In this document: positions 2,181 through 4,541 of the stretch, piece by piece
Position numbering within the stretch: the first letter of the stretch is position 1
How the letters are laid out: the number at the start of each line of letters is the position of its first letter
DNA from: a virus
Length of the DNA: 40,179 nucleotides
Direction: 5' to 3' (one strand)
Virus record (IMG/VR): IMGVR_UViG_3300037674_000070
Location: 1 to 40,179 of that record
Notes under the pieces: model-generated
What the model was told of the DNA's origin: nothing
Database searches by the model: none
What the model saw: only the letters and a program-made list of their open reading frames with translations
Program-made: the position numbers and the translations under genes

Positions 2181-2296
2181 TTTAGAATATTGTATAGCTT
2201 ATATTAAACATAAGCAAGACTTTGTGTTATTTGTTTTCTTGTGGTAGGTTCTATTGAGTCACTTTAACCATTACTGGTACGTTTATTCATTTGCCT

Positions 2297-2743
2297 ATGT
2301 CAGACATCACACAATACATACCTGATAGAAACAGAAAAAGAGAATACACAGAGAAACAACAAAGCTTTCTTGATAATCTTGTTTCAGCAGGAGGTGATGC
2401 CAAGATAGCAGCAGACTTAGCAGGGTACGCCCCAGGAGTCTATCCTCAGGTAGTAAGAGCCTTAAAAGAAGAAATCATAGAGCTGGCTTCAGAGATATTA
2501 GCACAATCAGCTCCTAAGGCTGCTATGAAGCTCGTAGAGGTCATGGAAGCTGATGCCCCTATCCCACAGTCAAATGTTAAAGTTCAGGCCGCACAGACGA
2601 TTCTAGACCGCATAGGGCTTGGAAAAGCAGATAGGGTAGACGTTAATCATAATATATCAGACAATACAGGGGCATTATTCATTCTTCCTGCAAAGAAACC
2701 ATCAACAGTAGATGCTGATTATGATGAGATTTCCAAAGACTAA
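2297..2743 (+). CDS. terS: Terminase small subunit
   Basis: The small subunit recognises phage DNA and directs the large subunit to start packaging. The protein (148 aa from the ATG at 2297; a TTG six bases upstream is less likely) has an N-terminal helix-turn-helix-like segment, TEKQQSFLDNLVSAGGDAKIAADLAGYA (about 18-45, given here in pieces: TEKQQSFL, GGDAKIAADLAGY), as in other small terminases. A helical middle and the ending DRIGLGKADRVDVNH are also typical, the latter probably the oligomerisation and large-subunit contact region. It overlaps the large terminase start by about 20-30 bases, as expected for a translationally coupled pair. No strong ribosome site is visible. It is the first rightward gene after the control region. 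The family call rests on motif resemblance and position. Confidence 0.85.
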   Translation: MSDITQYIPDRNRKREYTEKQQSFLDNLVSAGGDAKIAADLAGYAPGVYPQVVRALKEEIIELASEILAQSAPKAAMKLVEVMEADAPIPQSNVKVQAAQTILDRIGLGKADRVDVNHNISDNTGALFILPAKKPSTVDADYDEISKD

Positions 2744-4541
2744 ACCTAAAGGCAAAGGGTTAACACCTTTTGGCTATGTCTACAATGAAGACACTAAACT
2801 ACTGGAAGCTATTCCAGGTCATCTAGAAACACTGGAAGAAGCTTTACAGCTTTTTGAAAAAGAAGAACTGACTTCATTACGACAGGCAATAGATTATATT
2901 AAATCTAAAATACCTGACGCTAAGATATCTCATCAGACATTCTCTAACTACTTACAGAAAGAAGGTAAGCAGCGTAGACAATACACCTATCACTCTGCTG
3001 TCAAAAAAGACAAAGATGCTAAACAACGCATCAGACAGGATAGAAAGCGTGTTAAGCAGTTAGAAGGTAAATTATCTACAACTAAACAACGACTAAGAGA
3101 CAAAGAAAAAGTATTTAAGAAACTAAGTGAAGAACCTGATAAATCTACCATACATGGTAAAGTTGTAGACATAGAGCCTATATCAGACGTATTTAAAAAT
3201 GATATAGAGCAAGCAGTTGTGTTTGCTCCTAATGAAGGACCACAAACAGAATTCCTGGCCGCATCAGAAACAGATGTACTCTATGGGGGAGCAGCAGGAG
3301 GAGGTAAGTCTTATGCGATGCTTGTAGATCCCCTACGATACGCACACAGAGCTGTTCACAGAGCATTGATTATCAGACGTTCCATGCCGGAACTAAGAGA
3401 ACTCATAGATAAATCAAGAGAACTCTATCCTAAAGCCTTTCCAGGTTGTAAATACAGAGAAGTGGAGAAAATGTGGAATTTTCCTTCAGGAGCCAAAATA
3501 GAGTTTGGTTTCCTTGAAAGGGATGCAGATGTGTATCGTTATCAGGGACAAGCTTATAGCTGGATAGGGTTTGATGAGATTACACACCTGCCAACAGAGT
3601 TTAGCTGGAATTATCTGGCTTCAAGATTAAGAACTACTGATTCAAAGATAATCCCTTATATGCGTTGTACTGCCAACCCTGGCGGTGTAGGAGCACATTG
3701 GGTAAAGAAAAGATATATTGATCCCTGTATACCTGATACTAGCTTTGAAGGGGCTGATGGACTAACAAGAAAGTTTATCCCTGCCAGATTAGAAGATAAT
3801 CCTTATTTAGCAGAAGATGGTCGTTATGAACAGATGCTTAAAGCCTTGCCTCCTACACAGCGTAAACAACTGTTAGAGGGTAATTGGGATGTTAATGAGG
3901 GAGCAGCATTTACAGAATTCAATATTGACATACATGTTATCCCTCCTTTTCAGATTCCTTTCAATTGGGAAAGAGCAAAAGGCATTGACTATGGCTATGC
4001 CAGTGAGTCTGCCTGTATATGGGCTACAGTCGATTCTACTGATGGCACACTTATTGTATATAGGGAATTATATCAAAAAGGACTAACAGGACAGGATCTT
4101 GGGTATGCAATTACAGAAATGGAAATGCAAGATCCTTTTTCAGTTCCAGGTGTTCTTGATACTGCTGCATGGAACAGAACAGGGACTACTGGTCCTACTG
4201 TAGGAGAGACTCTGGTTAAACAGGGACACAAGCTAAGAAGATCTGATAAAAACAGAATTCAAGGGAAAATACAGATACATGAGTATCTGCGTATACAGGC
4301 AAGCGGCAGACCAAAAATACAGATATTTAATACCTGTCCGAATTTAATAAGAGAATTACAAAGTATTCCTCTTGATCAGTCTAATCCTGAAGATGTAGAC
4401 ACCAAAGCACAGGACCACGCTTACGATGCTTTAAGATATCTGATTATGTCCAGACCAAGAGTTAATGATCCTGTATCTCAACTTAGGCATTTAAGATTAG
4501 AACAGGCTTATACTCCTGCAGATAATATTTTTGGATATTAG
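2712..4541 (+). CDS. terL: Terminase large subunit with recombinase-like N-terminal segment
   Basis: This is the ATPase and nuclease motor that pumps DNA into the prohead. Numbered from the ATG at 2712, Walker A is GGAAGGGKS (192-200), Walker B is YSWIGFDE (282-289) with the catalytic Glu289, and the coupling motif is CTANPGG (319-325). The RNase H-like nuclease shows GIDYG with Asp426, VLDTA with Asp483, and DHAYDALRY with Asp568/Asp572. ATGs at 2721 and 2724 are also possible starts. At 609 aa it is longer than many terminases because of about 140 extra N-terminal residues. Residues about 17-82 (TPFGYVYNEDTK, LTSLRQAIDYI, ISHQTFSNYL) resemble the Recombinase DNA-binding domain of large serine recombinases, followed by a charged coiled coil (about 95-140). 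That resemblance is by eye. The ATPase and nuclease assignment is firm. Confidence 0.96.
   Translation: MLIMMRFPKTKPKGKGLTPFGYVYNEDTKLLEAIPGHLETLEEALQLFEKEELTSLRQAIDYIKSKIPDAKISHQTFSNYLQKEGKQRRQYTYHSAVKKDKDAKQRIRQDRKRVKQLEGKLSTTKQRLRDKEKVFKKLSEEPDKSTIHGKVVDIEPISDVFKNDIEQAVVFAPNEGPQTEFLAASETDVLYGGAAGGGKSYAMLVDPLRYAHRAVHRALIIRRSMPELRELIDKSRELYPKAFPGCKYREVEKMWNFPSGAKIEFGFLERDADVYRYQGQAYSWIGFDEITHLPTEFSWNYLASRLRTTDSKIIPYMRCTANPGGVGAHWVKKRYIDPCIPDTSFEGADGLTRKFIPARLEDNPYLAEDGRYEQMLKALPPTQRKQLLEGNWDVNEGAAFTEFNIDIHVIPPFQIPFNWERAKGIDYGYASESACIWATVDSTDGTLIVYRELYQKGLTGQDLGYAITEMEMQDPFSVPGVLDTAAWNRTGTTGPTVGETLVKQGHKLRRSDKNRIQGKIQIHEYLRIQASGRPKIQIFNTCPNLIRELQSIPLDQSNPEDVDTKAQDHAYDALRYLIMSRPRVNDPVSQLRHLRLEQAYTPADNIFGY

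Follow-up and report, generated by a model that had tools for sequence, protein, structure and literature searches.

On the evidence of profile comparison and fold modelling, residues ~17-82 at the N-terminus of the large terminase (TerL) studied here have their homologue in the recombinase domain (RD, PF07508-type) of large serine integrases; they correspond to the first two thirds of that domain. Every HMO-2011-type packaging module that could be evaluated has this segment as a domain either fused to TerL or encoded by a separate gene, and more distant TerL proteins lack it. It is therefore a hallmark of the HMO-2011-type packaging module. The sequences and models indicate that it most likely serves the packaging motor as an accessory module that engages DNA; it would bind DNA and might recognize the packaging site.

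The DNA analyzed (the window, 40,179 nucleotides) is a 40 kb fragment of a marine HMO-2011-type phage from IMG/VR. Its nearest named relatives are the Pelagibacter phages HTVC115P, HTVC103P and HTVC104P, with TerL identities of 62-66%. The small terminase gene terS is followed by terL and then by the portal and capsid genes, and TerS homologues lie upstream of terL in the relatives. The coordinates are summarized in Table 1. TerS more likely starts with the ATG at 2297 than with the TTG at 2291. In two relatives (L003 and L004) there is a stop just upstream of the ATG equivalent to that at 2724 in the window and no earlier ATG, so from these sequences TerL probably begins at ATG 2724 rather than at 2712. 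The gene then overlaps terS by 20 nt. The original prediction had spoken of a large terminase, and the ORF at 2712-4541 is confirmed as one. The protein matches Pfam Terminase_6N (PF03237) with E = 1.1e-12 over residues 191-405 and phrog_979 with E = 2.6e-65, residues 390-583 match phrog_5653, and the Walker A motif is invariant or nearly so across 40 TerL sequences. By these matches and the invariant motif residues it has the ATPase with Walker A and the packaging nuclease core of a Terminase_6 large terminase.

Table 1. Features of the terminase genes in the window. Positions are those of the window.
Feature	Position	Strand	Basis
Small terminase TerS, 150-aa ORF	2291..2743	+	phrog_2538 terminase small subunit, E = 9.9e-5
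Large terminase TerL, 605 aa from conserved start	2724..4541 (ORF opens 2712)	+	Pfam Terminase_6N, phrog_979
Short basic N-terminal arm (KTKPKGKG) before PFGY, equivalent to the αE-β6 linker of integrases	2724..2756	+	Charge in 50 homologues; PMC3783163
RD-like domain: β-hairpin (PFGY..L.AIP) followed by three helices, with a helix-turn-helix formed by the last two	2757..2963	+	hhalign, AF2, Foldseek
Hinge, then a long and strongly basic helix (coiled coil), joint between domain and motor	2958..3143	+	AF2, charge
TerL ATPase region	3282..3926	+	Terminase_6N match, Pfam PF03237, residues 191-405
Walker A motif GGAAGGGKS, packaging ATPase	3285..3311	+	Read from sequence

Upstream of terS there is ~1.3 kb of AT-rich sequence without obvious genes (956-2290), which contains two repeat arrays. 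Four near-palindromic copies of AGTRAG..YTYACTAAC are found at ~1649-1810 with a spacing of 47-49 nt, and three exact copies of CAGTTTAAC at 2121, 2141 and 2161 are spaced by exactly 20 nt. The region upstream of terS in many relatives has other arrays of short repeats, often 19-20 nt apart. The region 956-2290 is a candidate packaging, origin or control region.

A single-sequence search with the window domain against Pfam and phage records gave no match. Demonstrating the homology therefore required profiles, and single-sequence searches alone would have led us to dismiss it wrongly. A profile of the domain (A1) was compared with an RD profile of 14 serine integrases gathered from phages, using hhalign. 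The two align over 66 colinear columns with a probability of 95.5 and E = 1.5e-8. In an equivalent run the real comparison scored 42.3, against a maximum of 18.3 for 200 column-shuffled decoys, 16.1 for the reversed profile and 9.1 (P = 0.54) for the TerS of the same phage. When 26 real families of proteins from the loci were compared in this way, the two that contain the domain (separately seeded) scored 41.2 and 39.9, and the 24 unrelated families 13.7 or less. On removal of PFGY the match falls to P = 5.6e-4, so this motif carries much of the signal, but not all.

The serine integrase family phrog_95 was matched by 15 of the 41 aligned members of the domain and the runner-up family by 2 of 41. 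The Pfam family with most member matches was PF07508 (Recombinase), with 3 of 41 and a best E of 0.012, short of its gathering score (14.3 bits for phiM6 against a cut-off of 21.1). The N-terminus of phiM6 TerL matches positions 245-295 of the phrog_95 profile with E = 1.3e-5, and the domains of CRP-738 and of L026 match the same part. Among PDB sequences the SPbeta integrase gave the best match, which begins at its residue 169 (E = 0.076).

The order of motifs originally noticed, PFGY, L..IP, E..L..LF, S-L-R and the T..L helix, is conserved across the aligned domains, and the peptides were correctly placed, residue 17 starting at 2760 and residue 82 ending at 2957. The proposed likeness to a Recombinase domain was borne out by profile search, profile-profile comparison and fold search, but for the first two thirds of the RD only. 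The match stops at the third helix, which is followed by the hinge and coiled coil, and does not include the C-terminal part of the RD with its ..Y.G.. strands. Profile searches of TerL and of the standalone proteins found neither a resolvase catalytic domain in front nor a zinc ribbon behind. Identification of the domain as a TerS is not supported by its hhalign comparison with TerS, and a separate TerS is present.

AF2 modeling on 50 homologues gave a β-hairpin and three helices (E12-15, E20-23, H27-39, H46-56 and H64-73) with a mean pLDDT of 79.8. In a Foldseek search of 350,542 PDB chains large serine integrases, several of them bound to DNA, took ranks 1-7 as well as 9 and 12. Since E is 0.28 at best and TM ~0.5, the evidence lies in the ranking and not in the score; the RD fold is recognized from the hairpin and three helices together with these ranks, at E-values of 0.28 and above. 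With both profile and structural matches, the segment is not a generic helical extension. The top matches among predicted viral structures include entries of 133, 227 and 668 aa, identified by protein length only as HMO-2011 gp53, RHph_N3_13 and CHOED TerL respectively. After the domain, AF2 places a hinge of low confidence at residues 80-90 and a single helix at 91-135 (605-aa numbering), which supports the coiled coil noted there in the original prediction. The AF2 model of full-length TerL was poor, with a mean pLDDT of 56.3.

Four residues, P9, G11, L21 and S45, do not vary among 50 aligned domains. The N-terminal arm has a mean net charge of +2.7 over ~9.5 residues in 50 homologues, the loop +1.0 and H3 +1.4, while the hairpin and H1 are acidic. 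The domain of the window itself has a net charge of 0 over residues 1-78 and is thus neutral as a whole, and its linker leading to the ATPase carries +13 over 62 residues (79-140). Values of dN/dS are 0.07-0.28 in fused and free forms alike, indicating that the domain is under purifying selection, the fused form included.

Going beyond the original prediction, we find that the arm is normally a separate gene beside terL, and that fusion is the minority state. The domain is fused to TerL at 45 loci (the window and several other lineages) and a separate gene at 193, divided as 31 and 112 in the first sets and 14 and 81 in the next set; these are counts and not frequencies, because some contigs recur between sets and sampling was by similarity. 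The collections were searched with a single domain protein. The separate form is an ORF of 75-160 aa directly upstream of terL, touching or usually overlapping it. HTVC115P gp79, HMO-2011 gp53 and CRP-1 gp52 are such genes, all annotated as hypothetical. In the deposited annotations of ctYwJ313 and HTVC033P the gene is missing or wrongly called (L090 from 1700, and L096 from 1706). N-terminal fusions also occur in the TerL of CRP-738, CRP-3, phiM6, RHph_N3_19 and Slicky01, and the TerL N-termini of CHOED and Aeromonas phages have a weak trace of the domain. The HMO-type TerL loci that lack the domain (L025, L078, L190 and L208) are truncated at that end. The domain was absent beside and within ten more distant TerL sequences of 28-49% identity, mostly ≤41%. 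Separate-type TerL proteins (L026, L048 and L039) start with a conserved basic, AT-hook-like tail, KKDGTPRKKxGRPKGSKxR. The tail often fills the place of the domain in separate-type proteins, and is absent from fused proteins of the window type.

On a tree of the TerL core the fused and separate states alternate, with 8 changes by parsimony of which at least 5 are forced by well-supported branches. The junction sequences differ among lineages, and these differences suggest three or four independent fusions. The number is uncertain because recombination between phages could move fused N-termini between TerL cores; the domain tree has too few columns for dating fusions.

We considered a programmed frameshift as the link between the small gene and terL. 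An offset of +1 between the frames is seen in 93 loci, of +2 in 17 and of 0 in 2, and since no single frameshift fits these offsets, overlapping and translationally coupled genes provide the simpler explanation. Rhizobium phage RHph_N3_13 was rejected as a case of fused-to-split conversion. The record annotates its terL as two proteins, but TerL is interrupted by a group I intron (L097 1774-1991; Rfam RF00028, 60.7 bits) located within the Walker A sequence, and the form is fused. A second terL with a group I intron was found in L210 (1293-1566; RF00028, 54.6 bits), and the 867-codon TerL ORF of L188 (815-3412) has an insert with a LAGLIDADG domain, probably an intein. An Arthrobacter gene before terL annotated as an HTH protein gave no match to the domain, and by eye resembles TerS. 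Three loci have, after terS and before the domain gene or terL, a gene whose protein by eye resembles an iron-sulfur scaffold of the IscU/NifU type (L070 2209-2637, L072 2558-2965 and L079 1534-1950).

In the Listeria integrase the αE-β6 linker before the RD runs along the minor groove, and helix αH of the RD recognizes a few major-groove bases (PMC3783163). The basic arm and H3 of the terminase domain correspond in position to these DNA-contacting elements of the RD; this layout of charge, together with the fold, is suggestive of DNA binding. The TerS-binding part of P22 TerL is its first 23 residues (PMC9611059), which places the domain at the recognition end of the motor. We consider it reasonably probable that the domain is an independently folding DNA-binding module, derived from the RD or sharing ancestry with it, that is an obligate partner of HMO-2011-type TerL, free or fused, and loads or holds the motor on DNA. 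This is based on the homology, the predicted fold, the linkage to terL, the switching between fusion and separation, the purifying selection and the absence from distant TerL proteins; the binding of DNA, the identity of that DNA and the loading role are what we infer from them. Only the hairpin and helix-turn-helix core of the RD would have been retained. Most phages would make it as a small protein of its own, and in the window phage a basic helical linker joins it to TerL. The basic arm and third helix could then grip the DNA, which might be the packaging initiation site or DNA passed on by TerS. The long linker would tether the domain to the motor, so that the ATPase and nuclease would be loaded or kept on the right DNA, the arm acting either alone or with TerS.

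More tentatively, the domain could be a third, obligatory component of the terminase, free or built in, whose integrase-type DNA-binding domain would recognize the site where packaging starts and load the motor. For phiM6, packaging from a pac site has been predicted (PMC6256558). In integrases the helix-turn-helix of the RD contacts few base pairs by itself (PMC3783163), which makes site specificity doubtful unless another element contributes.

The domain might instead be an adaptor with an RD fold that no longer binds DNA, but docks TerL onto TerS or the portal. It does lie at the TerL terminus that contacts TerS in P22 (PMC9611059), the gene order is terS - domain - terL, and the hydrophobic residues of the hairpin are conserved. 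Yet in L122-L137, where terS is 1-2.3 kb away behind other genes, the domain gene remains next to terL and not terS, and the basic arm and H3 are located where integrases contact DNA. We think an adaptor of this kind unlikely. Since helix-turn-helix proteins often regulate operons, the separate gene could also be a transcription regulator or other helper that lies beside terL through operon structure only, the fusions being tolerated accidents. That is very unlikely given that fusions occur in several lineages with differing junctions, that the domain is beside or within terL in 238 of 238 counted loci, including 58 on sufficiently long contigs that were retrieved with the standalone protein as query, and that the fused form is also under purifying selection. 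Finally, the domain is short, its single-sequence scores are weak, and winged and MYB helix-turn-helix folds occur further down the Foldseek list, but a generic helix-turn-helix that resembles the RD by chance is scarcely credible when serine integrases fill the first seven PDB ranks and lead both the PHROG and the Pfam families in the number of members matched, when the match is colinear over hairpin and helices with every decoy far below it, and when the phage's own TerS scores so poorly.

HMO-2011-type phages have been described as dominant and broadly distributed in the ocean (PMC9038755). Their packaging module has been described so far as TerS plus TerL, and a conserved third part whose DNA-binding ancestry can be recognized adds to that; in this abundant group it seems to belong regularly to the packaging machinery as an additional part. 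How packaging motors choose and grip their DNA is still debated, and TerS is usually credited with the whole recognition role. A part found both free and fused to the motor offers a ready comparison, as the free protein can be removed, restored or swapped. It would also show the re-use of a site-specific recombination domain for genome packaging. Text searches for terminases with a recombinase domain, in open-licence papers only, found no report of one.

The protein is thus a known type of terminase with a re-used integrase-type DNA-binding module, which is homologous to PF07508 and falls outside strict membership of that family, being incomplete and below the gathering score. It shares the ATPase and nuclease core, Walker A motif and proximity to terS with the large terminases of Terminase_6 and phrog_979, while standard members of these families, including the ten relatives of 28-49% identity, are without the domain. 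The RDs of SPbeta YokA/SprA and the Listeria A118 integrase (PDB 9dxh, 4kis) match it element by element, from the PFGY-type start through β-hairpin, helix and S-turn to the helix-turn-helix of the terminase domain, and are preceded by a comparable stretch that contacts the minor groove in integrases. The terminase domain differs in covering ~66 of roughly 100 RD positions without the later strands, in having no catalytic domain before it or zinc ribbon after it, and in being attached or adjacent to a packaging ATPase. Phage TerS proteins with an N-terminal helix-turn-helix are likewise encoded beside terL and probably engage DNA, but here a separate TerS (phrog_2538) is also encoded, the profiles do not match, and the standalone proteins offer little sequence outside the domain that could form a TerS oligomerization core. 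HNH proteins beside phage terminases are an extra small partner of the two terminase subunits. Neither these nor pUL33 of herpesviruses are known to have any sequence or fold in common with the domain. pUL33 is similar in being an extra small protein that works with both terminase subunits (PMC9611059); the domain differs from third packaging factors of both kinds in being a partner that switches between free and fused states.
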